Assembly: GCF_003815655.1 (NCBI RefSeq)
Contig: NZ_CP033917.1
Location: 2,728,001-2,792,000, forward strand
Length of the DNA: 64,000 nucleotides
Source of the DNA: Chryseobacterium sp. G0201
GTDB taxonomy: Bacteria > Bacteroidota > Bacteroidia > Flavobacteriales > Weeksellaceae
Direction of reading: 5' to 3'
In this document: positions 2,690 to 63,312 of the stretch, piece after piece
Position numbering within the stretch: the stretch's first letter is position 1
How the letters are laid out: the number at the start of each line of letters is the position of its first letter
Notes under the pieces: generated by a model
Database searches by the model: none
Told to the model about the DNA's origin: nothing
Seen by the model: the letters and a program-made list of their open reading frames with translations, nothing else
Position numbers and translations under genes: made by a program

Positions 2690-3277
2690 ATGAAAAAATT
2701 GTATTGTTTTGATTTTGACGGAACCCTGACCTATAAAGATACCATGTTTATGTATCTTAAATTTTATGATTCTGCAAAGTTTCGGGTACAATTTATAAGA
2801 CACATTCCGCTTTTCATTTTATTAAAATTAAAATTGGCTGAAACTGAAAAAGTGAAGAAAAGTTTCATCGGATCTATTCTGAAAGGACAGACTCAGGAGA
2901 AAATTGAGAAAAAAGCCAAACAATTCTTCGAAGAGAATTATCCAAAAATCGTTCGCGAGAATGCTATGGATTTCATTCAAAATATCGATAGAGATAATAC
3001 ACAAAGTTTATTGGTTACTGCATCCCTCGACATCTGGACAAAACCATTTGCCGAAGCATTACAAATGCAGCTTGTTTCCACGCGTGCAGAGTTTAAAAAC
3101 GGAGTTTTCACAGGAAATTTTATTGGTAAAAACTGCAACGGAAACGAAAAATTAATGAGGATAAAAGAGGAAATAAGCAATTCTAAATACGATAAAATCA
3201 TCGCTTTCGGAGATACTTCTGGAGATAAGCAAATGCTTAAATGGGCGAATGAAGGACATTACCAATTTTTTCACTAA
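2690..3277 (+). CDS. HAD-IB family phosphatase
   Basis: A 195-residue HAD hydrolase: motif I is FDFDGTLT (Asp nucleophile and acid/base Asp, residues 8-15), motif II is VTAS (about 106-109), and motif IV is FGDTSGD (about 174-180). A helical cap lies between I and II, typical of the SerB-like IB subclass. It sits five bases after the DprE2-like gene. Mycobacteria need a phosphatase to remove the 5-phosphate from decaprenylphosphoryl-5-phosphoribose; this gene is the obvious candidate for that step here, although mycobacteria use a PAP2-type enzyme. Class is sure; that assignment is inference. Confidence 0.8.
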   Translation: MKKLYCFDFDGTLTYKDTMFMYLKFYDSAKFRVQFIRHIPLFILLKLKLAETEKVKKSFIGSILKGQTQEKIEKKAKQFFEENYPKIVRENAMDFIQNIDRDNTQSLLVTASLDIWTKPFAEALQMQLVSTRAEFKNGVFTGNFIGKNCNGNEKLMRIKEEISNSKYDKIIAFGDTSGDKQMLKWANEGHYQFFH

Positions 3278-5940: not shown

Positions 5941-7179
5941 ATGAACAAGACATTCAATTTACTTTTCTATGTAAAAAAGGCTAAAATCAATTCTGTAGGA
6001 GAGTCTCCTATTTATTTACGAATTACAATTGATGGCAAAATATCCGAGATCAGCACAAAACGTACAGTAAAGCCTTCAAAATGGAACTCTGCGATGCAGA
6101 AGGTTAGTGGCTCTTCAGAAGAATGCAGATCACTTAATTTTTATTTAAAAACATTTGAGCAGAGAGTTTATGATACCTATCACGAGTTAATAAGAGATAA
6201 GGAAACAGTAACTTGTGACGCTCTTAAAAATAAGTTAGTGGGTAGAGGTAGATTGGCCAGAACACTCATTCCCGTTTTTCAGGATCATAATGATCGAATG
6301 GAGAAACTTATAGACAAAGAATTTGCCCAAGGAACATTAACCCGTTATAAGACCTGTCTGAAACATACCAAAGGTTTTTTGAAATGGAAATACAGTATTA
6401 CCGACATTGAAATAAAAAAGATTGATTATGCTTTTCTCAACGATTTTGAATTTTTTTTAAGAACCGAAAGATCCTGTAACAATAATTCTGCGGTAAAGTA
6501 TATCAAGAATTTTGGTAAGATCATTCGTATCTGTCTTGCAAATGGATGGATGGAAAGAGATCCTTTTATGAACTATCATTCTAAGTTTAATGAAGTGACA
6601 AGAATGTTTCTTAATGAAAAGGAAATAGAAGTGCTTTTTGCCAAAGATTTTAAAAATGAGAGATTGTCCTTGGTAAGAGATATTTTCCTGTTTAGCTGTT
6701 TTACAGGATTGGCATATATTGATACTCAAAAATTAACACATCAAAATATCAATTTAGGACTTGATGGCTCTCAATGGATCTATACCAAACGTCAGAAAAC
6801 GAAAACTACCTCAAATATTCCCTTGCTTTCTCAAACAGAGAAAATCATTGAAAAATACAAAAATCATCCGGTATGTCTTAATAGTGGAAAACTATTGCCT
6901 ATTCTTAGTAATCAAAAAATGAATGCATATCTTAAAGAGATTGCAGACCTGTGCGGAATTAACAAAGAATTGACCTATCATATTGCACGCCATACTTTTG
7001 CAACAACTATCACATTATCTAACGGGGTTTCCATTGAAAGTGTAAGTAAAATGCTAGGTCACAAAAGTATTAAGACTACTCAGCATTACGCAAAAATTCT
7101 AGATAAAAAAGTTAGTGAGGATATGATGGAATTGAAACAGAAATTTAGTGATAAAAAGAAAATTGTAATAAGCTGTTAG
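5941..7179 (+). CDS. int: Tyrosine recombinase / integrase (CTnDOT-like)
   Basis: A 412-residue site-specific recombinase. Residues 1-95 are the arm-type DNA-binding domain, about 105-205 the SAM-like core-binding domain, and about 215-400 the catalytic domain. Catalytic residues seen: H347 and R350 in YHIARHTFAT, H374 in LGHKS, and nucleophile Y383 in TTQHYAKI. The usual first Arg is replaced in FTGLAYID, as is known for the IntDOT subgroup, which manages without it. It is transcribed away from tRNA-Asp and begins 248 bases after it, so it should catalyse integration into and excision from that tRNA. No promoter box was recognised upstream. Confidence 0.93.
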   Translation: MNKTFNLLFYVKKAKINSVGESPIYLRITIDGKISEISTKRTVKPSKWNSAMQKVSGSSEECRSLNFYLKTFEQRVYDTYHELIRDKETVTCDALKNKLVGRGRLARTLIPVFQDHNDRMEKLIDKEFAQGTLTRYKTCLKHTKGFLKWKYSITDIEIKKIDYAFLNDFEFFLRTERSCNNNSAVKYIKNFGKIIRICLANGWMERDPFMNYHSKFNEVTRMFLNEKEIEVLFAKDFKNERLSLVRDIFLFSCFTGLAYIDTQKLTHQNINLGLDGSQWIYTKRQKTKTTSNIPLLSQTEKIIEKYKNHPVCLNSGKLLPILSNQKMNAYLKEIADLCGINKELTYHIARHTFATTITLSNGVSIESVSKMLGHKSIKTTQHYAKILDKKVSEDMMELKQKFSDKKKIVISC

Positions 7180-26530: not shown

Positions 26531-26779
26531 TCATTTCATTTTTAGAAAATCTTTGAAAGCAACGCTTGATGCATAAGGATAGAATCCATATTTATTAGGC
26601 GCATTCAGATCAACCATTACATAATCTAAAAAATTTGCATCATCTAACTTTTCACAAAGTACTTTGTAGACCTCGATACGCTTGTCCTGATTGTGAAAAG
26701 ATATATGATCTGTTAAGACATAAGTTTTCAGGTGAAAGTTCTGGAAGATATCGAGAAATTTCTTCTTTAGATAATACAA
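26531..26779 (-). CDS. Hypothetical 82-residue protein, doubtful start
   Basis: The frame opens with TTG at 26779; there is no ATG, and an in-frame stop lies 12 bases upstream. The peptide (YYLKKKFLDIFQNFHLKTYV ... NAPNKYGFYPYASSVAFKDF) has soluble-protein composition with varied codons, so it once was or still is a gene. No family recognised. It stands between the haem operon and the broken polymerase gene, both on the same strand, and may be a truncated remnant. The 26271-26530 stretch on its other side holds nothing I can name. Confidence 0.4.
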   Translation of the reverse strand: MYYLKKKFLDIFQNFHLKTYVLTDHISFHNQDKRIEVYKVLCEKLDDANFLDYVMVDLNAPNKYGFYPYASSVAFKDFLKMK

Positions 26780-26838
26780 ATTAAAATGAGTTTATAATTC
26801 ATTTATTTGAATATCAAATTCCAATAATAATTTTTGTT

Positions 26839-29800
26839 TTAAAAATAATATCCCATTTTCTTACGAGGCAATTCAATTTCGTATTCCTGTGGATAAGGCT
26901 CTCTAAAAGTTACACTCACATCCTCCCGAAGACTCCTTTCTATTTCCAGTGATTTTTCTTTATCCATCGAATATCGGGGATCTACAATCAGTGGCATCTT
27001 TGCCATTTTTGTAATGGTAACCGTCGGAAAGTGATAATCTACCTCAACGGTTCCCAATAGAAGATAGATACCACCCTCCTTAAAAGGAAACCTTCTGAGG
27101 CTATCAGGGAAGTGGGCTGTATCAAAATACTGTCCTTCGGCATCGATCCAAGTCCCGAAGTACATATCATCTTTCTTTCCGGGATGATTTTTCTTTTTGA
27201 TGGGAACGTGTTTTCTTGAAATCAGATAGGCCAGCATCTTAACCTGCTTCTTATGATATTTAAGAAGATCCTTTACCAGAACGTGACCTCTGTATTTTGT
27301 TTTAAGCAGGTCAAATATAGAGAAGGAAACAGAAAAGCCTAAAATTTCAATTTCGTCGAAAGCGTCTTCAAATTTATTCTTTTCAATAACTGGTAATTGA
27401 TAATTCTTTTGAGGCTCATCAAATAAAGAAATGATCTTAGTTTTATACTGCCCTTTTGATAATAAGAATCTTGCTTCGATCAGCAGTTCGTGTTTTTGTT
27501 TTCCTGTAAACCTGAAGGCTCCAATAAAAATGAGTGTTTGTAATGATTCAATACCAATGGATATTCGTTTAACAAAATCCTCAAGCGATTTGTACTCTCC
27601 ATTGTTTTTTCGTTCTTCAGCAATAAATAGCTTGACCGCAGCTTCAAGCTTTTCAATGTGCAAAAAACCCAGGTATACATCAATACCATAGACCGTCGTC
27701 TGAAATTCACTGAGGTTCACACAAGGATTATGAATGGTCGCTCCTGCCATTTTAGCTTCGTGCACATAAACTTCCGTTCTGTAAAACCCACCGCCATTGT
27801 TGATGGCTGATACCATAAATTCAATGGGGTAGTAGGCTTTTAGATAAAGACTCTGATAACTTTCCACCGCATATGATGCAGAATGTGCCTTACAGAATGA
27901 ATATCCTGCGAAGGATTCGATCTGCCTGTACACTTCCTGCGAAAGTTGTTCAGGATGCCCTTTTTTCTTACATGATTCAAAGAAGTCATCTTTTAATTTC
28001 TGTAAGGCAGATAAGGAGCGACCTTTACCGCTCATTGCCCTCCTTAAAACATCACCATTTTCTGCAGAAACACCGCCAAAGTGCAAAGCTATTTTAATGA
28101 CATCTTCCTGATAGACCATGATGCCGTAGGTTTCTCCCAATTCTTTTTCAAAGACCTCGTGAAAATATTCGAACTGATCCGGATGGTTATGTCGGAAGAT
28201 ATATTCGCGCATCATTCCGCTCTGTGCCACTCCTGGACGAATGATAGATGAGGCAGCCACCAGAACCTTATAATTTTCACATTTCAATCTCCTTAATAAT
28301 CCACGCATTGCGGGGGATTCTATGTAAAAACAGCCTATGGTCTTCCCGATACTTAGATATTCATTGCACTTGGTCTCATTCTTTGAAATCCTTGTATCTT
28401 CAATGTCGACAATAATCCCTCTTTTTTCCTCAATCAACTTGACTGTATCTTTAATGGTTCCTAATCCTCTTTGTGAGAGAATATCAAATTTTTCAAGGCC
28501 TATCTCTTCAGCCGTATGCATATCGAACTGTACGATTGGGAATTCTTTTGGGGGAAACTATAAAGCAGAGTAATTCGTGATCGGCTCCTCTGAGATCAGG
28601 ATCCCACAGGAATGCATGCTTCTTTGATTAGGAAAACCTATAAGCAATCTTTCATATTTATATACCTCATGGACAATAGAATTCTGATCATGCTGATCTT
28701 TCGGTTTTTTAGAGAGTTGATCCAATTCATCTTTAGGAAGCCCAAACACTTTTCCAAGCTCCCTAAATCTTGATCTGCTCTTGAACTCCACATTAGTTCC
28801 ACAAAAAGCGACGTGGTCTTTTCCATATTTGTTAAAAATATATTCTAGTATGGTATCCCGATTCTTCCAGCTCCAGTCGATATCAAAATCAGGAGGTGTC
28901 TTCCGGTTAAGATTCAAAAATCTTTCAAAATATAAATCAAGTTCCAAAGGACAAATGTCAGTAATTCCAATGCAATAGCTGACAATGGAGTTGGCACCGC
29001 TTCCTCGTCCCACATGCATAAATCCTGTTCGTTTGCTGTATTGGATAATATCCCAAGTAATTAAAAAGTAACCACAAAAATTTAATTGATCAATGACGCC
29101 AAGCTCTTTCTCAACTCTTGCCTTTGCTTGTATATTGTCAACAGAATATCGCATTCCCAATCCTTCATAGGCTAATTGTGTCAGCAATTTAAAATCATTC
29201 TCTTTGCTATCGGTATAATATTTTTTATTTTTTGGTGTTTTAAAGTCAAAATCGAAGCTGCAAGCATTGACAATATATTTGGTATTTTCAATGATCTCAG
29301 GATACTGACAATACTTCTCCAACAGTTGTCTTTTACCGATAAAGGTCTCATTGTTTTTACAATGATCATCTTCTGTCAATTTGGTGAACAGGGTGTTTCC
29401 TGCTATTGCCCTCAAAACCTTATGCAGTTCATATTCTTCCTCCGTCTTAAAGGTCACCGGATGCAATATGACCATTTTATGAATCAGAGTCTTAAATTCA
29501 GGATTGAACAATAGGTTTAATTCATCCTGTCTTATTCCTATAAATTCATGTTCCAACAGTTTTTCGGGCATATTTTGTAAAGGATAGATAACAAATGTAT
29601 TTTCAAGATCGGGATTAGCTCTAGAAATTTCAATGCCATCACAATTGTATGCCGTCAAAAGCCTGTTGACCTCCGCAATGCCTTTTGGATTTTTGGCAAT
29701 ACACACGAAGTACTGCTCATTTTTAACCCGCACATCGACCCCAACAATCGGTTTGATGCCTCTTTCCTGACAGAGTTTGTAAAACTGATAGATACCGGTA

Positions 29801-29922
29801 ACCGTATTGATGTCAGTCAGAGCCAAAACCTTTAATCGATGGTCAACAGCCAGCTGAACCAGATCTTCAACAGAGATGGTCCCGTAACGCAGGCTGTGAT
29901 AAGTATGGCAATTGAGAAACAT
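26839..29922 (-). pseudogene. dnaE: DNA polymerase III alpha-type (error-prone DnaE/ImuC-like), interrupted by an in-frame amber codon
   Basis: One reading frame of 1027 codons with a single TAG at 28558-28560. Upstream of it are 454 codons: the PHP domain (NCHTYHSLRYGTISVEDL, residues 4-21) and the first half of the polymerase, with the catalytic pair in PDFDIDW. Downstream, twelve codons (FPPKEFPIVQFD) lead without any frame change into 560 more: the third catalytic Asp (GLEKFDILSQRGLG), fingers, HhH and the C-terminal OB part. So it is a substitution, not an indel. Truncated at TAG, the protein lacks the third catalytic Asp and cannot polymerise. It may be a true loss, a read-through case, or a sequencing error. 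It follows the Y-family polymerase by ten bases, the usual pairing of a damage-tolerance cassette. Confidence 0.88.
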
Positions 29923-29932
29923 GAGTAATGCT

Positions 29933-31075
29933 TTATTTTAAAAATCCTGACGCTCGGCCGACACTGGAAACCCCAAATCGGTTCTTGATCTTATCCATCG
30001 TTTCATACAGTGAAATGAGCTCTTCCGTATCTTCGAAAAGATCCATCTGATGACAGCCGTGAACCAGTCCTGTGAACTTAACGCCGATCAGCCTTATTCT
30101 CATCCTTCTGGTGTATAGCTTCTTAAATAGTTCCAATACATATCTGAGCAGCGTATGGTCAGCTGAGGTGTATGGAATCTTGCATTGCTTGATCTCGGTG
30201 TCGAAATTGGAATATCGGATCTTGACCGAAACTGTTGAGGTCAGCCACTTTTCTTGTCTCAGCTGGAAAGCAAGCTTTTCAACCATCCCGGATAATATGC
30301 TTCTGATCTTTAGGATATCGATAGTATCCTGAGAAAACGTATCCTCTGTGGAAATTGATTTCCTTTCGGAATATGGGACAACGGGTGTTTCGTCAATCCC
30401 ATGGGCTTTTTTCCAAAGTACAGTTCCATTCTTTCCGACCAACTCTTGCAGTACATCAACAGGCATTTCAGAAAGTGTTTTTATGGTCTTAACACCTAAT
30501 CTCGAAAAGAGCTGAAAGGTCTCAGGTCCGATCATCGGAATTTTTTTAATCGATAGAGGATTCAGAAAGTTTTGAATATTGTCCTCCTTTACCTCAAACC
30601 TGCCAGTAGGTTTGGATTCTCCAGTACCAATTTTGGAAACCGTTTTGTTTGTAGATAATGCACAACTTATTGGTAGACCTGTATTCTTTGTAACCGCATT
30701 CGCAATTTCGTTTGTCCATTGATAGCACCCGAAGAATTTATCCATTCCGGAGAGATCCAGATAAAATTCGTCAATACTGGCTTTTTCCAACACAGGTACT
30801 CTTTCCTGAATGACCTCTGTCACCAGATGAGACATATTGGAATAGTATTCCATATCACCTTTGATCACTTTAACTTCAGGACATAATCTCATTGCCATTT
30901 TTATCGGCATTGCACTTCTAACGCCAAAATATCTCGCCTCATAAGAGCATGATGCCACCACACCACGATCCCCACCTCCAATGATGACCGGCAGTTTCTC
31001 TAATATTGAGTTTTTTAGCCGTTCACAGGAGACAAAGAACGTGTCCATATCCATATGCGCAATTGCTCTTTCCAT
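29933..31075 (-). CDS. dinB: Y-family DNA polymerase (DinB/ImuB-like)
   Basis: A 380-residue translesion polymerase. The palm carries AHMDMDTFFVSCE (catalytic Asp pair, residues 6-18) and KASIDEFYLDLSG (Asp-Glu, about 99-111), so it should be active, unlike many ImuB proteins. The thumb HhH is around IKKIPMIGPETFQLF, then the little-finger domain, then a beta-clamp binding motif QMDLF (about 343-347). Intact. It is the first gene of a minus-strand pair with the broken dnaE, and is divergent from an S24 regulator with a shared palindrome between them, so it is probably damage-inducible. Confidence 0.9.
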   Translation of the reverse strand: MERAIAHMDMDTFFVSCERLKNSILEKLPVIIGGGDRGVVASCSYEARYFGVRSAMPIKMAMRLCPEVKVIKGDMEYYSNMSHLVTEVIQERVPVLEKASIDEFYLDLSGMDKFFGCYQWTNEIANAVTKNTGLPISCALSTNKTVSKIGTGESKPTGRFEVKEDNIQNFLNPLSIKKIPMIGPETFQLFSRLGVKTIKTLSEMPVDVLQELVGKNGTVLWKKAHGIDETPVVPYSERKSISTEDTFSQDTIDILKIRSILSGMVEKLAFQLRQEKWLTSTVSVKIRYSNFDTEIKQCKIPYTSADHTLLRYVLELFKKLYTRRMRIRLIGVKFTGLVHGCHQMDLFEDTEELISLYETMDKIKNRFGVSSVGRASGFLK

Positions 31076-31110
31076 ATTGCAAACTTAGTCACGTTTTTAA
31101 ACAAAATGCG

Positions 31111-31135
31111 TATATTTGTTGTCATAAATTATGAC
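31111..31135. promoter_or_regulatory. -7 box and palindromic operator between dinB and the S24 regulator
   Basis: TATATTTG (31111-31118) is a fitting -7 box for the plus-strand regulator. Right after it lies the palindrome GTCATAAATTATGAC (31121-31135; 7-base arms around one A), which overlaps the regulator's start codon. It is the likely autoregulatory site of the S24/XRE protein and could also control the divergent polymerase genes. Confidence 0.55.
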
Positions 31136-31907
31136 AATGTCAATTTTTGCAGATAACATCGTGTTTTTAAGAGGTAAGAAAAATCTAACGCAGCAGAAGC
31201 TGGCGGATGAACTCATTCTTACCAGATCGAGATATGTTTCTTATGAGTATGAAAAGGCAGAACCGCCAATTGATGTGTTGATAAGAATCTCCAAATACTA
31301 CAATATCAGCATTGATCTTTTAGTTACTGTTGACATTAGAAAATATCCAATTGATGATATTTTGAATTTGCCCAATAATCGGGTAGTCCTACCTATTGTT
31401 GTGGATAAGGATGGTAATAATTACATTGAGATCGTTCCACAAAAAGCTTCAATGGGTTATTTGAAAGGCTTCAATGACCCTGGCTATATTGAAAAACTTA
31501 TGAGGATTCTTCTGCCATTTTTAAAAAATGGAAAATACAGAGGCTTTCTGGCAGACGGCGATTCAATGCCACCTTTTGCCGATCAATCGATAATCATCGG
31601 AGAATATGTTGAAAAACTGGATGACCTCAAACTTGATAAGGATTATGTTTTTGTGACTAGGGAAGGTATCACTTATAAGACATTTTTAAAGAGAAATAAA
31701 AAATCAATTACGGTAGCAGCTGATAATTTATTTTATGAACCTTATAACATTGCATTAGGGGATATAGTTGAAATATGGAGTTATGTAATGGGAATTTTAC
31801 CTAAAGACTATAAACCTTTAATGCCGGATTATGCCAATTTAAAAATGATGATTGGGGATTTGAAGACCACGATTCTAAACTTGGAAAATAAGGTTTCTAG
31901 TTTTTAA
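31131..31907 (+). CDS. XRE-type regulator with LexA-like S24 peptidase domain
   Basis: A 258-residue SOS-type repressor. Residues 5-65 are a Cro/C1 helix-turn-helix (KNLTQQKLADELILTRSRYVSYEYEKAEP). Residues about 85-225 are an S24 domain with catalytic Ser145 in DGDSMPP and Lys183 in TYKTFLKR. The self-cleavage site, usually Ala-Gly, reads Ala-Ser-Met-Gly (106-109), so cleavage may be slower or lost. A coiled-coil tail (about 235-258) ends it. Starts possible at ATG 31131 or 31137; the palindrome covers both. Divergent from dinB/dnaE and followed by the alkB pseudogene, it should control this repair cassette. Confidence 0.88.
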   Translation: MTMSIFADNIVFLRGKKNLTQQKLADELILTRSRYVSYEYEKAEPPIDVLIRISKYYNISIDLLVTVDIRKYPIDDILNLPNNRVVLPIVVDKDGNNYIEIVPQKASMGYLKGFNDPGYIEKLMRILLPFLKNGKYRGFLADGDSMPPFADQSIIIGEYVEKLDDLKLDKDYVFVTREGITYKTFLKRNKKSITVAADNLFYEPYNIALGDIVEIWSYVMGILPKDYKPLMPDYANLKMMIGDLKTTILNLENKVSSF

Positions 31908-32004
31908 ACATAGTCTGTTAATTAAAGATCTTACCAAAAAGCGAATTGAAAACACAAATAGAAATGGGATGGCATAAAGAAAAATATTTTAAAAGAAAAT
32001 TGCA

Positions 32005-32620
32005 ATGAGCCAGCTGAGTTTATTTGATACTGAAGAATTTTACGAGTTTCCAAAAGACCTTTTGGAATATAAAGAAAATTTCTTGAGCAGGGAAGAGGCG
32101 GATCGATTGAAAGACCATCTGTTTGAAACGGCTCCATGGGAACAACGTACCCAGAAAATGTATGATAAGACAGTCATAACCCCACGACTAACCGCCTGGT
32201 ATGGTGATGACAAAAAATCTTATGAATCGGCTGATAATAATGCTTCAAGCACCAATCCCTGGACTCCGGAGTTGCTGGCATTAAAAGAAAGAATTGAACA
32301 AGAATTCGGTTACAGGTTCAATGGGGTTCTATTAAACCTTTATCGTGACCAAAATGATTCGGTAGCTTGACACAGAGATAAGGAAAGCAGATATGGAAAA
32401 AGACCTGTTATTGCATCTGTCAGCCTCGGTCAGACCCAGAAACTTTGATTTCAGAAAAAAAGACCATTATCAGAGCAAATATAGCCTGCCTCTTCCGAAC
32501 GGTTCGTTGCTTATTATGAAAGGTGATCTTCAGGAACGTTGGGAACATAGGATTGCTAAATCCATTGTGCCTATGAAAGAACGTATCAATTTGACATTTA
32601 GGTTGATCCGGGACGCATAA
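32005..32620 (+). pseudogene. alkB: alkB-like 2OG-Fe(II) dioxygenase, two inactivating lesions
   Basis: The N-terminal 121 codons (SQLSLFDTEEFYEF ... RFNGVLLNLYRDQNDSVA) and the later stretch NFDFRKKDHYQSKYSLPLPN ... ERINLTFRLIRDA form one AlkB protein, which repairs alkylated bases. Lesion 1 is TGA at 32368-32370 where the family has Trp, just before the iron-binding HRD. Lesion 2 is an extra C in CCC at 32435-32437, which shifts frame before NFDF. With both changes undone, the intact sequence reads SVA-W-HRDKESRYGKRPVI and GQT-RNFDF. Two separate hits make this a real pseudogene. It lies behind the S24 regulator in the damage cassette. Confidence 0.88.
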
Positions 32621-32928: not shown

Positions 32929-33720
32929 TTATATATTCTTATCTAAAAATCTCTTTTTATAATCCTCTACTTGAAAGGAACTTGAAAAATATTTTTCTTC
33001 CAGATTCTGTATATTGTAATTTCCTACTTTCCAATTCAGAACATCTGAAGTTCTTTCCCAAATTGAATCTGAATTAAAATGATGTTCATTTTGAAAACAA
33101 GATTGTGGAATCCAATCTTTATTGTGTAATTCTGCTTCGAGTTTATATTTAATTTCATAATCAAGTGATCTAAAATAATTTATATTAACTTTTTTAGCAT
33201 GTTTATCAACGTCTAGAAATGAAAATAGCTCATTGAAAAAGGAAGCGCAGTATAATTTTAGATTTTCATTTTCTGAATGGACTGAATAAAATCTAGGTCT
33301 TATTGTGTCGTCAACCATTTTATAATCAATAAGATCTGTAATGATGCATTGTTGATTTAAAACACAAACTGAGTTTAATGTTTCAAATAAATACATTATG
33401 TCTTTTGTTAGTATTCCAGACTTATCTTTAGAGTGATAAAAATTGCATATAGCTTCAGATATCGTACTTTCAGAAGAGTAGCCTTTATTAAATGCAAAAA
33501 TACCTTTAAAAATTGGGGCAGGAGTATTTGTATTTCTGGCTACTTCCCATAATAGATCCATTCCATCGTTAAATTGATTAGAATCTAATGTAGATTTTAC
33601 TTCTATTACAGCCCGTAGTGCTTTTTCTGGTATAACAACTAAGTCTCCTTCCCTAAATAAAGGAGAGAAATTTTGTGAATCATAAATAAGAATATCACAT
33701 TGTCTTTTGCATCCTTCCAC
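32929..33720 (-). CDS. DUF6602 nuclease-like protein, 3' part of a frame-split gene
   Basis: About 263 residues from GTG 33720, but the frame is open further up to about 33780 and reads LPK-KYEVATGFVEG into QCDILIYD. That continues what the upstream gene breaks off, so this is the second half of one protein. CDILIYD (Asp) and ALRAVIEVKS (ExK) form a PD-(D/E)XK-like core as known for DUF6602. The C-terminal half is unassigned. It is the last gene of the caspase-HEPN-nuclease run. Alone it would lack the first strand of the domain, so a working product needs a frame change at the A6 run 33742-33747. Confidence 0.7.
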   Translation of the reverse strand: MEGCKRQCDILIYDSQNFSPLFREGDLVVIPEKALRAVIEVKSTLDSNQFNDGMDLLWEVARNTNTPAPIFKGIFAFNKGYSSESTISEAICNFYHSKDKSGILTKDIMYLFETLNSVCVLNQQCIITDLIDYKMVDDTIRPRFYSVHSENENLKLYCASFFNELFSFLDVDKHAKKVNINYFRSLDYEIKYKLEAELHNKDWIPQSCFQNEHHFNSDSIWERTSDVLNWKVGNYNIQNLEEKYFSSSFQVEDYKKRFLDKNI

Positions 33721-33731
33721 AAAACCTGTAG

Positions 33732-34415
33732 CTACTTCATATTTTTTGGCAAATATTTTTTTAATATTCCTCTTAATAATTCTTCACGATAGTTTCCTTT
33801 AACGGGATTGTGTTGTATTAAGAGTTCAATTCGCTGACTCTTTGATATAATTTCGTCTGCAATTCCTTCTAAAAACCTTTTTTTGTTTTCATATTCTAAT
33901 GCAAATGCTGATAATTTAATGAATTTTCCTTTAGACTGCTTTTCAAAGCTTAACAAACCCTTGCTTATGCTTAATTTTATTAGAGCTTCGGCTTCATTTT
34001 CCTTTAAGTTGTAATTATTCTTATAAAAATCTATAATAACCTCTACATCAACCTTTTTTAATGGATTAGTGTAAATGATGTTTTCTATAGCTTTATAAGA
34101 AATTGAATAAATTTTTTGAAGATCCAAAAATCTTCCAAAAATTTCAGTTGATGAAGATTTTAGGTCTGGAAATGCGGTACCTTTAAAATCTTCCAATTCA
34201 ATAATTGTAGGTTCATCTGGAAAATTATACCAAAACGCAGACAACTTTTTATTGGTTGGGTTAATTGTGGCAACTATTAGTTTTATTTCATCAAAATCCT
34301 TATCAACATCAATAAATCTCGTTCCTTCTTTAATTTTATCTATTGGGTACATTTTATAATTATTATTTTGTAAAACAGTGGATAATTTGATTTTCTTTAT
34401 ATTATCATTTTGCAT
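33732..34415 (-). CDS. DUF6602 protein, 5' part of a frame-split gene
   Basis: Start at ATG 34415 (MQNDNIKKIKLSTVL); 227 residues. No family was recognised for the first 190. The end, GNYREELLRGILKKYLPKN, is the beginning of the DUF6602 domain, which normally goes on with YEVxTGF. Those residues follow in the next frame of the downstream gene. The switch point is CCA AAA AAT ATG (minus strand, A run at 33742-33747). One extra A, or a -1 slip on A AAA AAT, restores one protein of about 495 residues. It starts 19 bases after the PD-(D/E)XK gene. Confidence 0.65.
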   Translation of the reverse strand: MQNDNIKKIKLSTVLQNNNYKMYPIDKIKEGTRFIDVDKDFDEIKLIVATINPTNKKLSAFWYNFPDEPTIIELEDFKGTAFPDLKSSSTEIFGRFLDLQKIYSISYKAIENIIYTNPLKKVDVEVIIDFYKNNYNLKENEAEALIKLSISKGLLSFEKQSKGKFIKLSAFALEYENKKRFLEGIADEIISKSQRIELLIQHNPVKGNYREELLRGILKKYLPKNMK

Positions 34416-34434
34416 TATCAATAATATGCAGATA

Positions 34435-35253
34435 TTATAATATGCTCTCTTTGTAGGTTCTGATGTTCCTTATTTTACTGTTGAAGCTGATTCCAATTTC
34501 ATAAATATTAAGATTGTCAATCCTATACTTTGCTGCATAATCTTTGTCTATGATTTGGTTCAAAGCTTCCTGAGAATCATCAGAATCTTCTGAAAATTTA
34601 AATTCCATTATATAGATTTTACGGCTGAATCGTATGACCGCATCTATCCTCCCAATATTTGTGGATTCCTCCGGAACAATATTGAATCCAAGTAACTTCA
34701 AAATCAAGAAGACATTAGCGTGATAATAACCTTCGGTTTGCTTGACAATCTCGTAAGAAACGTTTGCAAAAACAGATTTTAGGTCCGCGATGAAATTTTC
34801 AATGTCATGATTTATTAAATGATATCTCAATTGCTGGTACAATAAAACATTTTCATCCTCCAGATCATAAATTTCAATTGCATATTCAAAAGCTGATAAG
34901 ATCTTTTCTATATATGACGTAAAATACGAAATAATCCAATCAGTATCTTCTCCATCATAGAGAGTATCTACAAGATGCCTATCGTTATTAATATCATCTA
35001 TAAACCTTTGTAAATAATAAAGTAAGTTTTGCGGCGTAGCAAATCTATGAGGTATTAATCGTTCGAAATTGAGATTTTCCTCAATATTTAAATAAATATT
35101 TATTAGAAAGTCCAGGATTTCATTTCCTTTTGGTAGGAGATAGATTCCAACATCTCTCTGGTCATATACTGCCCTATAAAAATCATTTAACTCAAAAATA
35201 TTATATGTAAAAAATTCGTGTAAGTATTGCTCTACCCTTTCAATTTTTGTCAT
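34435..35253 (-). CDS. PD-(D/E)XK nuclease-superfamily protein
   Basis: A 272-residue protein. The C-terminal third holds the nuclease fold: ETEGYYHANVFLILKLLGF helix (about 172-190), then IGRIDAVIRF (D204), IYIMEFKF (E217-x-K219), and SQEALNQI (Gln of motif IV). This resembles the domain found at the end of the DUF1703 AAA-ATPase family, here without the ATPase. The N-terminal 160 residues are helical and unassigned. It is cytosolic, and lies 29 bases after the HEPN gene and 19 before the DUF6602 gene on the same strand. Possible effector of a defence operon. Confidence 0.75.
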   Translation of the reverse strand: MTKIERVEQYLHEFFTYNIFELNDFYRAVYDQRDVGIYLLPKGNEILDFLINIYLNIEENLNFERLIPHRFATPQNLLYYLQRFIDDINNDRHLVDTLYDGEDTDWIISYFTSYIEKILSAFEYAIEIYDLEDENVLLYQQLRYHLINHDIENFIADLKSVFANVSYEIVKQTEGYYHANVFLILKLLGFNIVPEESTNIGRIDAVIRFSRKIYIMEFKFSEDSDDSQEALNQIIDKDYAAKYRIDNLNIYEIGISFNSKIRNIRTYKESIL

Positions 35254-35282
35254 TGGCTTGTAAGTTTATTTATAGATTTAGA

Positions 35283-36422
35283 TTACCAATCCATATTTGC
35301 TGAGTTATCAAATATTCCCTGCAAATGATCACAAAATTTTTCCATAATATCATTATCGTGCATTGCAGATTCATACATCCCATTGCTTGCATAAGGTAAT
35401 ATTGTGATTAAACCTTGCCCTTGGGTATATGTGAGTGCAGGTTTTAAATTGCTGCTATTCATATCAGAGATAAAAGATTCTATCAAACATATAACTTCAT
35501 TATCTTTAAATTCCAGTGTGCCTTGAAAAGAAAACCTATTTTTAGTCTTATTAAAGTTCATCATTACTGGTACAGCACCGGCTCCGGAATGAAAGTGGAA
35601 TGCATTGCCGTCTTTTCCAAATGCACCGTGAGCAACAAAGTTCCTTACCTGATTCCTTATCATCAGTAATTCAATATAATATTCCTTTAACATATCGTCA
35701 GATATGACAGTATTAAATTTAGTTTTCCATTCGGCATCGATTAATTTTGTGACTTCTTCCCCTGTTTTTATTTTTTGTGTAAGGATAGCAAGATGAATAA
35801 ATAGATGTTCTGTCCAGCTAAAAAATGATTCAATAGTTGAAATTGCTAACCATTTTGTGCTTTGCCGTATCTTGTAGTAATTTTTGGAACCTAGAACAAA
35901 AGTGCCATCAATAGAAATCCTTTCTTTAGATAATTTTTCTAGTTTCTTATTTTCTGATTTATATAGATTTAGAAAATAATTAAATCGTTCAAATAAATAT
36001 CCATTATTATTTACAATATTTATTTCGGAACTCTTGATAGCCTCTGCTGCCAAGTGGTTAAAATATGGTCTTGAAGATTTTATCGCACCGTTAATTTTCT
36101 TAGTAATTATTTTCGCATCTTCTTCATCTTCCTTATTTTGAATAAAAACCCCAACTCCCATTTTCCTGTGTTCAATCAGAAATGCTTTACCATTAAAATC
36201 AATTGGAATAGACCAAGCCAGCTTTTCAGATCTTCCTGTGTCTTTGAAACCTAATAAATTTACAAATAGAAAATAAACTAAGTAGTAATCCTGTATCTCC
36301 CTTCCTGCATCACTTCTTTCAGCAAAAAATAATAGTTTTTCGTTTGCTTTTGTATTATCATCGACTTGCTTTATTGGAAATAATATTTTCAGGGCATTTT
36401 CTTTGTATTTTTCAATATTCAT
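35283..36422 (-). CDS. Putative HEPN-domain protein (RNase-like motif)
   Basis: 379 residues, no named family recognised. A helix STIESFFSWTEHLFIHLAIL (about 195-214) is followed 40 residues later by YYIELLMIRNQVRNFVAHGAFG, in which R260-N-F-V-A-H265 is the R-x4-H motif of HEPN nucleases with the usual polar residue after Arg. The pair of helices and motif fits a HEPN fold of the ApeA-like sort. The N-terminal 190 residues and the C-terminal 100 are unassigned. It lies 97 bases after the caspase-like gene and starts the tight trio HEPN, PD-(D/E)XK, DUF6602. RNase function is inference from the motif. Confidence 0.65.
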   Translation of the reverse strand: MNIEKYKENALKILFPIKQVDDNTKANEKLLFFAERSDAGREIQDYYLVYFLFVNLLGFKDTGRSEKLAWSIPIDFNGKAFLIEHRKMGVGVFIQNKEDEEDAKIITKKINGAIKSSRPYFNHLAAEAIKSSEINIVNNNGYLFERFNYFLNLYKSENKKLEKLSKERISIDGTFVLGSKNYYKIRQSTKWLAISTIESFFSWTEHLFIHLAILTQKIKTGEEVTKLIDAEWKTKFNTVISDDMLKEYYIELLMIRNQVRNFVAHGAFGKDGNAFHFHSGAGAVPVMMNFNKTKNRFSFQGTLEFKDNEVICLIESFISDMNSSNLKPALTYTQGQGLITILPYASNGMYESAMHDNDIMEKFCDHLQGIFDNSANMDW

Positions 36423-36519
36423 ATTCTATTTTTATGCAGGTAGTTGGGTTTTCATTTTCCGGCTTTAAGCATCTTCAATGATTTAGATAAAATAATTTTA
36501 AACTATTTTAATGTGTTTT

Positions 36520-37932
36520 TTATATAATAAATCTAATGTATCTAAGTTCAAAATTCGAATTAATTCTTATCGATTCAACTGGCGCATTAAGATATTTGGC
36601 TAGGACTGTCTTTAATCCATTTTCATTATACCCATCAATATAATACTTCGATATTTCTTTTTTAATATCATTTCCGTTAAAGATTATTGATTCGATCACC
36701 TGGACTATTCTATCTCCAAAACCATCGTTTGTTGTTTTTTGGCTGCATTTAATTTCAATATTTATTGTCTGCGAATTTGGTAAAAATAATATAGAGTAAT
36801 CCTGTTGAATTAAAATACCATTTATGAAATCGAATGATTGATTGAATGCTGGATTATCTCTTAATTTAAAAATTTCTTCTCTATAATTTCCTTTAAAATT
36901 ATTAAATCTGAATTCACCTTTGCTGTCGTAATACATTTCAAATAGAATTCCATTTAGAATATGATTCTCGGAGTTTATTTGAAAATCTAGTAGTGACCTA
37001 TTAAGATTTTCAAAAAATGTCATAGCGGAATTTGCCCCACCAATAGCGCATTGTAATAAATTTCTTCCTAAAATGAACATTTGGTCCTTATCTAATTGAC
37101 TTACTGGTATTGTTATTAAATAATCAATTGCAGGATTTTGTTTGTACCAATTGTAGGTCTTTAGTTCTTTAATTTTTTTGTAAAATTCTGAATCTTCATA
37201 ATAATTTTCATCTTTCAAAACATTCGGATTATAAGGTAGGCTTAAAATATTTAGTTTTTGATGTTTGTAAAAGTAAAAATCACCAATTAATGAGGTGTGT
37301 TCCCAAGTTGTTTGTCTTCCTCCTGACAATGCAAAAACTGTCTTTCTTACAGATTTAAATAGATCTTCGACAGCTATCCTTTCGGACGAGAGGTGCTTTA
37401 TTAGTGAGCCCGTATAAATACTATTATTCTCATATCCGACATCTAAAGCACCTTCATTTGGAGATGTTGAAAATGCTATTAGTGATCCTTTAGGAGCTAT
37501 AATTGGACTAAATCCAAGTGCAGTCCCGCGACCAAATGATCTTCTGCAAGCATCTAATATCACTATGTTTAATTTAGTAGGATTTTGCCTGTATATGTCA
37601 AATAAATCATTTAAAGTAATACAATTTTGTTTTGCCACATATTTATTTTCAGGAGGAATTTGCGAATCGATACTCGCCAAAAAATTCTCTCCATCTACTT
37701 CGAATCCGTGACCTGCAAAATAAAAAATAGATGCATCAAAATCTTTTAGTAAGTCGCTATATTCTTGTAAAATTTCAACTATGTTTTTTTGATCGATATT
37801 TAGATATAATTTTACCTCATAATTGTAATCTTTAAAGATTTCAGCAATTTGATTTGCATCATTTTCTCCGTTAGTTAATTCACTTCCTTTAAAGTAGTTG
37901 TTATTGCCAATTATAATTGCTAATGTTTTCAT
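36520..37932 (-). CDS. Caspase-family (C14) cysteine protease
   Basis: A 470-residue protein. Residues 1-225 are a caspase/metacaspase p20-like domain: MKTLAIIIGNNNY start, H75 in FYFAGHGFE and C129 in VILDACRRS form the catalytic dyad, and FSTSPNEGAL (about 153-162) follows. The remaining 245 residues are unassigned and may sense a signal or bind partners; they include RNSFKGNYREE-like and IEIKCSQKTT stretches. Prokaryotic caspases often trigger abortive infection by cutting a neighbour-encoded effector. The HEPN and two nuclease genes directly downstream are obvious candidates. Protease call is firm; the system is inferred. Confidence 0.87.
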   Translation of the reverse strand: MKTLAIIIGNNNYFKGSELTNGENDANQIAEIFKDYNYEVKLYLNIDQKNIVEILQEYSDLLKDFDASIFYFAGHGFEVDGENFLASIDSQIPPENKYVAKQNCITLNDLFDIYRQNPTKLNIVILDACRRSFGRGTALGFSPIIAPKGSLIAFSTSPNEGALDVGYENNSIYTGSLIKHLSSERIAVEDLFKSVRKTVFALSGGRQTTWEHTSLIGDFYFYKHQKLNILSLPYNPNVLKDENYYEDSEFYKKIKELKTYNWYKQNPAIDYLITIPVSQLDKDQMFILGRNLLQCAIGGANSAMTFFENLNRSLLDFQINSENHILNGILFEMYYDSKGEFRFNNFKGNYREEIFKLRDNPAFNQSFDFINGILIQQDYSILFLPNSQTINIEIKCSQKTTNDGFGDRIVQVIESIIFNGNDIKKEISKYYIDGYNENGLKTVLAKYLNAPVESIRINSNFELRYIRFII

Positions 37933-38241
37933 ATATCTAAGTCGATTTGGATGTTTTTAAATATTCGTTGATAAAATGTAGAAAATTAGAATTTTGCAAG
38001 CTATTCTGATTACCTAAAAAGATAACCTTTAAACAATCAACTTGTGTTTTTCGATATTGATATTCTCCATCACTTTAGACCTAAATATACAAAAGATATT
38101 GTTAGAAAATTACGGTTTCCTCTCAATATGAAAAAAGTTTGTCGCGACAATAATGCAACCAAAATATTTAAATTTGGAAAAATAAAAGAACTGTCTTTTA
38201 CGAATATGCAAGGTAACACACAGTAATAATATGAGCCGATG
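37933..38241. other. Gene-free stretch upstream of the caspase gene
   Basis: AT-rich. A 60-codon plus-strand frame (38044-38226) opens with TTG, has no recognisable content and is not called. It holds the promoter region of the minus-strand defence genes, but no clear TAnnTTTG box is seen. Confidence 0.4.
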
Positions 38242-39300
38242 TTATTCTTCTAATAAACCTGAATTTTTGGTAAGAAAAACTTTTATAATTTCATCTGAAT
38301 TAAAATTATCAGAATTGTGTGTTTCCTGATTGTTGTTACTCCCTTCACTTAAAAGATTTTCATCAAAAGTTAAATTGAGTTTTGAAGTCTTTCCCTTAGT
38401 CATAACATTTGAAGATAAATCTAACTTTTCATAATTCTTTGCAATTCCTTGTGGCTGTGTGTCAGCGAAAATTAATGGAGGGCAAAGTGGATAAGATATT
38501 TCTTCGCCTTTTTGTAAAACTTTATCACCTTTATGGTAAGGTATGTAAAATTGAATGTAAGAATCTTGGTAATATAGTTTTATCCAATGAGAAGGCAATT
38601 TACTTTCTAAATTTCTTTTTTTGAAAATTAAAACATAGGGAAATTTCACATTAAAACCAGATAACCCTTTATGAATTTGTTTGGCATGCTGTGCAAAATA
38701 GGTTTCATTTTTATTTTCCATCAAAAAATCAAAGCATAGTTTATAGTTTGCTACTTCATAATCAGGAATTACAGTTAGGGCTATTTTCAGTAAACATTTG
38801 AAAATATTAATCGGTATATAAGGATTATGTATAACATTGAATTCAATAATTCCTCCATCTTTTTTTTGAATCACACCTTCCTTACTAGATTCTATCTCAA
38901 TGCCTTCAAAACCATTAAAATTATTTTTTTTAGCTACAATATTGCCATCGTACGATTTAAATGTTGGAGGAGTTTGTGTTCCTAAAGCATTAACACTTCT
39001 GTTCAAACCTAAAAAATTTGCCATATCACTTTCGTAACCTGAGAAATGATTGTTACACTTATCACATTCATAATCTGATACCCCAGAGTTATTTCCAAAT
39101 AATCTTGAAATAATATGAGGCTTGCCTTTAAAGGTTGTTTCAGTGGATTTTTTACCACAGAAGCGACAGGTTCTATCTGATATTTTTTTTAGAGGACGTC
39201 TTTGATTATCTATTGGAGGAGTATACATACCTTTTAATTGATAATCATTATCAAAAGCTTTTAGATGCTCAATATTTCCATAGTATGTATAGATATTCAT
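38242..39300 (-). CDS. HNH endonuclease-like zinc-binding protein
   Basis: A 352-residue protein. Residues about 43-95 contain CRFCGKKSTETTFKGKPHIISR followed by LFGNNSGVSDYECDKCNNHFSGYE. Two CxxC pairs and the H-N-N/H pattern are those of HNH_5-type nucleases. The rest (about 100-352) is beta-rich with no family recognised, and the tail is Asn/Ser-rich. It lies between an XRE regulator and the caspase gene on the same strand, inside the presumed defence island. It may cut foreign DNA; that is inference. Confidence 0.75.
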   Translation of the reverse strand: MNIYTYYGNIEHLKAFDNDYQLKGMYTPPIDNQRRPLKKISDRTCRFCGKKSTETTFKGKPHIISRLFGNNSGVSDYECDKCNNHFSGYESDMANFLGLNRSVNALGTQTPPTFKSYDGNIVAKKNNFNGFEGIEIESSKEGVIQKKDGGIIEFNVIHNPYIPINIFKCLLKIALTVIPDYEVANYKLCFDFLMENKNETYFAQHAKQIHKGLSGFNVKFPYVLIFKKRNLESKLPSHWIKLYYQDSYIQFYIPYHKGDKVLQKGEEISYPLCPPLIFADTQPQGIAKNYEKLDLSSNVMTKGKTSKLNLTFDENLLSEGSNNNQETHNSDNFNSDEIIKVFLTKNSGLLEE

Positions 39301-39383
39301 TGATTCTTTAAAATTAACTATAAGTCAGATTGTCGTTATTTAATTTTTGATTCAAGTATTTGCAAGTGTTCAAATATTTATTA

Positions 39384-62565: not shown

Positions 62566-63312
62566 ATGAGAAATACAGCCAATACAATTAAGAACGAAGA
62601 AACCGACATAACCAATAATTTTGGAACACTCTACCATCCTAAATCAGCATTGGTCTTTTATGAGACAGAAGATTATAATCCCGATGGTTATGTTGAACAT
62701 TTTGATATTGACCGCAACGGTAATCCCATCAACGCCCATCCATTGACCGTAAGGGAAGCACAGCGGTTATCGAAAACGCTTAATATCCAAAATAAGAAAG
62801 ACAAAGATTTTCTAAGACCAAGTGGAGTTATTTCTGAAACTATACTTTTAATAGATACGTCGGAAAATGGAAAAGTGGTCTGGTACACAAAAGCACAGGA
62901 ACGACATTTATTATTTACCGAGAAGCTTTCGATTCCAAACGGATTAGCGAATGTGCCACCTTTGGTATGGTGTGCTAATAAGCAGGGAATGAAAATATTC
63001 GCATTGGAGACAGACCAACGCCCCGATGTAGATACAACACTTTTACACGCTCCTTTCTTTAATGTTTATGAAAGCGGAAGTGTCTGTATGGGAACGGTTG
63101 ATGTAAACATTAAAAGTTCCGCATCATTGGAGGAATTTACAAAGAAATGGGAACAATATTTTTTCAATTCTTATTTCAGCCATTTGGTAAACAGCCATAA
63201 TCCGATTAAAAGAAACTTGGTAAACCTTTGGAAAAGCCTTATTGATTCAAAAGAGCCGTTTCCGACAGATATTCTAATCAATTCAAATCTAACTTTAAAA
63301 AATCTACTCTAA
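62566..63312 (+). CDS. PRTRC system protein B
   Basis: 248 residues with PKSALVFYETEDYNPDGYVE near the start, LRPSGVISETILLIDTSENG, VVWYTKAQERHLLFTEKLSI and APFFNVYESGSVCMGTVDVN, the PRTRC-B/JAB-like pattern. The last base of its TAA is the first of the next ATG (TAATG), so it is coupled to the ThiF gene. Confidence 0.88.
   Translation: MRNTANTIKNEETDITNNFGTLYHPKSALVFYETEDYNPDGYVEHFDIDRNGNPINAHPLTVREAQRLSKTLNIQNKKDKDFLRPSGVISETILLIDTSENGKVVWYTKAQERHLLFTEKLSIPNGLANVPPLVWCANKQGMKIFALETDQRPDVDTTLLHAPFFNVYESGSVCMGTVDVNIKSSASLEEFTKKWEQYFFNSYFSHLVNSHNPIKRNLVNLWKSLIDSKEPFPTDILINSNLTLKNLL

Follow-up and report, generated by a model that had tools for sequence, protein, structure and literature searches.

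The window, a stretch of 64,000 nucleotides of the Chryseobacterium sp. G0201 chromosome, contains a gene of the DUF6602 family (PF20247) whose reading frame is broken on the minus strand. It lies last in an apparent operon of the order caspase, 379-aa protein, PDDEXK_9 and DUF6602. An integrase gene and two other broken genes were found in the same window. The features are listed below in window positions.

5941..7179, plus strand: tyrosine-recombinase (integrase) gene beside two tRNA-Asp genes (PF00589, E-value 1.2e-14)
26839..29922, minus strand: DNA polymerase III alpha gene (dnaE-like), interrupted in frame by a premature TAG after codon 454; the halves match DNA_pol3_alpha and DNA_pol3_finger
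32005..32620, plus strand: alkB-like gene (2OG-FeII oxygenase), interrupted by a premature TGA and then by a frame disruption downstream; both parts match 2OG-FeII_Oxy_2
32929..33720, minus strand: downstream fragment of the DUF6602 gene in the -1 frame, 263 aa from a GTG, with the rest of DUF6602 and the PD-(D/E)XK residues (PF20247 positions 47-96; NucC E-value 1.2e-5; 6uxf E-value 0.0028)
33732..33734, minus strand: premature TAG closing the upstream frame
33742..33747, minus strand: A6 run, at or near which the frame changes; heptamer A_AAA_AAT at 33747-33741, with its T at 33741; homologues are single-frame across the equivalent stretch
33756..33762, minus strand: A7 run just upstream of A6; codon-usage change points at 33768-33738
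33732..34415, minus strand: upstream fragment of the DUF6602 gene, 227 aa from ATG 34415, ending in LPKNMK and the stop (PF20247 positions 6-33; NucC profile positions 28-58)
34435..35253, minus strand: PDDEXK_9 nuclease-like gene, next upstream; only a remnant in six related loci
35283..36422, minus strand: 379-aa protein without a match in Pfam, NCBIfam or PADLOC at the limits used; eight other genomes carry it, six of them (from two genera) with 100 % and two with 87 % identity
36520..37932, minus strand: caspase-domain protein, head of the apparent operon (PF00656, E-value 1.5e-33)

On the minus strand the break reads TTG CCA AAA AAT ATG AAG TAG. The original prediction, made from the letters of the sequence and their open reading frames, was that a one-base slip splits a DUF6602 gene here, and the split is real. 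The upstream frame stops at TAG 33734-33732, and the -1 frame, which reads KYEVATGFVEG and on to QCDILIYD, continues the same domain. This frame is open for 270 codons counted from TAT 33741 and its stop ends at 32929. The upstream fragment is composed of a N-terminal region of approximately 180 aa and the first third of the DUF6602 domain, and an alternative TTG is present at 34421, ahead of ATG 34415. Only one lesion was observed in the approximately 1.49 kb of the gene, and the catalytic residues are retained.

The slip had been placed at the A6 run. The join does lie at or near 33747-33742, but the exact base is not fixed by the data, and the A7 run at 33762-33756, which had been overlooked and at which the -1 frame is already open, may be an alternative place of the indel. 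The best eight codon-usage change points fall at 33768-33738 and differ by no more than 1.2 log units. The frame-0 homology (LLRGILKKYLP) reaches the A6 run and on sequence grounds favours it as the probable site. The codon-usage scores of the two halves (0.182 and 0.148) are both like those of genes of this genome (mean 0.230, sd 0.076).

Domain identity and homologues across the break

The PF20247 profile is divided between the two halves. The upstream half matches positions 6-33 with an E-value of 0.0056 and 17 bits, which does not reach the 27-bit cut-off, and the downstream half matches positions 47-96 with an E-value of 3.8e-9 and 36.8 bits, above the cut-off. The PADLOC PD_DExK and NucC profiles are divided likewise, at consecutive positions. 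The active-site D and E-x-K are found in the downstream half (QCDILIYD and VIEVKS), in register with residues 71-125 of 6uxf, and we assume for them the roles of the NucC residues that they match. In addition, an intact DUF6602 homologue matches several NucC structures (best E-value 1.6e-6). The two halves are therefore read, from their homology, as one split NucC-like PD-(D/E)XK (DUF6602) nuclease gene, because they share a domain; the long open -1 frame alone would be insufficient for this. The gene has the core profile and the active site of its family, and lacks the single continuous frame.

NucC, a DNA-cutting enzyme of phage defence, is an effector of CBASS and is also CRISPR-associated. 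Since both halves resemble this nuclease, the earlier label of toxic effector is fair in kind. By sequence, the PD-(D/E)XK core is common to the gene studied here and the NucC endonuclease (PDB 6uxf, 7zgv and 6p7p). In contrast to NucC, the gene carries the extra N-terminal region of approximately 180 aa, its reading frame is broken, and it is known here from sequence alone. A further apparent difference is that no cyclic-nucleotide synthase was recognised beside it among the seven proteins searched at the locus, one of which is the 379-aa protein without a family match. The name DUF6602 was absent from the literature searched.

The same split was also looked for in homologues, and it was not seen to recur. 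When 395 genomes of the phylum were searched, 44 DUF6602 matches were obtained including this one, and of the 43 others, 41 run uninterrupted through the break in a single frame. A match was counted as crossing when it starts at profile position 10 or before and runs past 60, the break being at about 34. Only such early-starting matches were used because this gene itself was listed at 20-96 without a stop, its -1 frame being open upstream of the break. The remaining two matches start at profile positions 17 and 74 and are undecisive. In a motif search of 42 homologous loci, the LP...GF stretch was shown in one frame for 20; among the other 22, four are second copies of loci already shown and the rest were missed by the search expression. 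A Vibrio homologue (L058) contains LPKKYEVSTGF in one frame and reads the same A6-T run without a shift, and a Rhizobium homologue is a single annotated CDS matching both halves.

Close relatives of both halves were not found in the genome contigs searched, nor were close relatives of the downstream half in the viral contigs or phages searched. The plasmid records contain distant homologues only, the best by score sharing 33.5 % identity over 63 % of the downstream half. Because no close homologue was found, the ancestral state at the break rests on distant relatives. As far as searched, the split of the DUF6602 gene is a singleton.

Two plasmid copies of DUF6602 look broken at places other than here. 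The Nostoc copy (L057, about 2790-3150), which is among the 20 loci whose motif stretch was shown in one frame, has an internal stop a little upstream of the motif, and for the Methylobacterium copy (L056, 3001-3138) no downstream half was found.

The A_AAA_AAT heptamer and slippage

The dnaX gene and IS transposases are known cases of programmed -1 frameshifting. As in those genes, an A_AAA_AAN heptamer occurs here just before the stop and is followed by a long open -1 frame. The original prediction offered programmed frameshifting at A_AAA_AAT that sets the dose of a toxic effector; by such -1 ribosomal frameshifting a small dose of full-length nuclease would be made. The heptamer was correctly located, since it lies in the upstream frame at the break and the -1 frame continues the domain, but it is unremarkable in this genome. 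In ORFs of at least 200 aa from 644 kb, 165 in-frame A_AAA_AAT heptamers were counted in 129 of 367 ORFs.

The open -1 frame following each of the 165 heptamers was determined with the real downstream DNA. It is 270 codons long here, 232 and 231 codons at two others, and at most 51 at the remaining 162. Of the two others, one is at window position 63297 on the plus strand, 5 codons ahead of the stop of its ORF, and its 232 codons are cut short where the window ends. The other, with 231 codons, is at position 7634 of L075 on the plus strand, 21 codons ahead of the stop of its ORF; both open frames are probably the start of the next gene. The long open -1 frame was therefore rejected as a proof of one gene, as two other heptamers are also followed by more than 230 codons.

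Unlike in the genes programmed for frameshifting, no stimulatory structure was found here. Nothing stood out when the downstream RNA was folded for the structure that had been suggested there, with z-scores of 0.72, 0.82, -0.63 and -0.61 against shuffles, in a model that covers stem-loops. The nearest GAGG lies 21 nt upstream, whereas the GAGG-type element of dnaX has a shorter spacing. The site is also not conserved in the homologues examined, 41 of 43 being single-frame, and the Vibrio gene translates the same run with no shift. In Antonov et al. 2013 (PMC3711429), the scheme for sorting frame transitions requires a conserved site and at least five genes for a recoding call, and validated singleton transitions are treated as sequencing error or indel mutation. 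The gene studied here resembles the singleton frameshifted genes and pseudogenes of that study in occurring in one genome, in having homologues that read through and in its unconserved site, and no difference from them was found.

With the split seen once, homologues almost all in a single frame, a common heptamer and no stimulatory structure, programmed frameshifting is considered highly improbable. A broader form of the idea is that slippage at A6/A7, by the ribosome or by RNA polymerase, yields a low and tolerable dose of a self-toxic NucC-like nuclease in this lineage, so that the split would be an adaptive setting of dose and not a loss. We regard this as improbable too.

Broken neighbours and the accuracy of the assembly

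Two clearly broken genes sit next to the DUF6602 gene, the dnaE-like gene about 5 kb and the alkB-like gene about 1.4 kb from the break. The position of the premature stop is a sense codon in 19 of 19 relatives for dnaE and in 18 of 18 relatives having both parts for alkB. In two of these 18 (L026 and L027) the reading frame also changes between the two alkB parts. The HTH-dinB-dnaE-alkB block (26770-32604) is 93.6 % identical to the genome G247, compared to about 77-90 % for the matched chromosome outside the island. A second copy of the cassette is present elsewhere in this genome (72 % identical), and the loss of these genes here may thus be tolerated.

A sequencing or assembly error, in which the run length was wrongly recorded and the gene is intact in the cell, had been raised as another option. 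It would agree with a sole lesion located at a homopolymer and with the gene-like codon usage of both halves. In PMC3711429, BLASTp-validated singleton frameshifts are expected to be sequencing errors and not indels.

This genome was compared with G247. A stretch of 29 kb beyond the window on the same chromosome (110061-139268 in window numbering, about 2838061-2867268) is 99.6 % identical to G247 and, from the sequence, would be a very recent shared transfer, the matched chromosome outside the island being about 77-90 % identical. Within it, 112701-139268 aligns over 26,568 bases with 3 mismatches and no gap; one single-base gap occurs at 112687, just outside this part and between ORFs of at least 80 codons. 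None of the 85 homopolymer runs compared (A/T of at least 6, G/C of at least 5) differs in length from G247.

Intactness of ORFs was compared as well. The 200 kb of G247 used for this contain 137 ORFs of at least 150 aa. For 92 of them a covered counterpart lies in the 264 kb taken from this genome; 86 are intact and six were flagged. The dnaE-like gene accounts for two of the six and alkB for one, and the only stop in the other three is at codon 12-19. The last three (161946-163790, -9845 to -8955 and -41039 to -39282 in window numbering) were rejected as broken genes since their stops fall within the first 12-19 codons, although the one at -9845 to -8955 could be a real early lesion. Thus, dnaE and alkB are the only clearly broken genes of the 92 compared ORFs, and both lie a few kb beside the DUF6602 gene. 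In the reverse comparison, 90 of 192 ORFs of this genome are covered in G247, with 87 intact and three flagged, so an occasional flag is seen in G247 as well; the dnaE flag in this direction reflects a shorter C-terminus in G247.

Given the unvarying runs and the 86 of 92 intact ORFs, a poor assembly overall was rejected. The premature stops of the neighbours arose by substitution and not through changes in run length only, and neither such clustering nor such stops would be expected from random sequencing error. The sequencing-error option is less likely than a real indel, and we judge it unlikely, with some chance still left to it.

Phase variation was also considered, in which the A run would change in length and so turn the nuclease on in some cells of the population and off in others. 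Phase-variable defence genes exist, and A6 and A7 runs are present at the break. However, A runs of at least 6 are nothing unusual here, 463 kb of coding sequence having 1068 of them. None of the 85 runs compared varied between the two genomes, and the genomes searched yielded no second allele of the DUF6602 gene. We give this explanation hardly any credence.

The island and the fate of the nuclease gene

The integrase gene and the two tRNA-Asp genes likely mark the end of a mobile island. The island looks mobile because the integrase gene is beside the tRNA genes and because in G247 the same place is followed by different content.

The 379-aa gene was used as an anchor in a search of 296 genomes, which gave eight carriers and one further genome with a fragment only. 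In six carrier loci (L131-L136), from six genomes of two genera, about 4.15 kb (35128 or 35155 to 39301) containing the caspase, 379-aa and HNH_5 genes is 97 % identical to the window, and PDDEXK_9 is reduced to a remnant. This segment would be a recently spread module, possibly related to defence. The HNH_5 gene is intact in the window and split into two ORFs in L131 (10046-11106). The two other carriers (L137 and L138) do have PDDEXK_9, after which the contig continues for only about 100-135 bases; the first 103-135 bases of these contigs may belong to the edge of an insertion element.

A DNA search recovered the DUF6602 gene from none of the eight genomes carrying the 379-aa gene, and a single 48-base match in G285 is trivial. 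When an intact copy of the operon was sought with the 379-aa and PDDEXK_9 anchors, 379-aa carriers turned up, but the DUF6602 gene was in none of them. The tail of the operon can apparently be done without, which makes a frameshift there unsurprising. The DUF6602 gene may be a late addition that lies outside the function of the module.

Of the three options originally offered, loss mutation is the best supported, programmed frameshifting is unsupported and sequencing error is less likely. The probable explanation, which we favour with good confidence, is that a recent and real indel has inactivated a NucC-like nuclease gene within decaying island cargo. The gene is disrupted here and intact in relatives (distant ones for DUF6602), and disrupted genes adjoin it. 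The ancestral gene would have encoded a NucC-like (DUF6602) PD-(D/E)XK nuclease with an extra N-terminal region, at the end of an apparent operon in a mobile-looking island. At the A6 run or beside it, a recent one-base indel would then have shifted the frame inside the nuclease domain and parted its first third from the portion with the catalytic residues. Most likely the product would be truncated and inactive; slippage might conceivably yield a little full-length protein, or GTG 33720 a little of the C-terminal part. The break looks recent because both halves keep gene-like codon usage. The mobility of the island is inferred, as are the presence of the indel in the living strain, its recent origin and its inactivating effect. 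The retained catalytic residues and the absence of a second lesion would also be expected of a gene that is functional and expressed, or of a sequencing error.

Should slippage be the right reading, a suicidal nuclease would be dose-controlled by a leaky frameshift. The evidence points to ordinary gene decay over a programmed switch, and the locus is best annotated as a disrupted NucC-like (DUF6602) nuclease gene instead of a candidate recoding signal. Beyond annotation the significance is little: the cargo of one island, an error-prone-type polymerase gene, alkB and the nuclease, would be decaying side by side.
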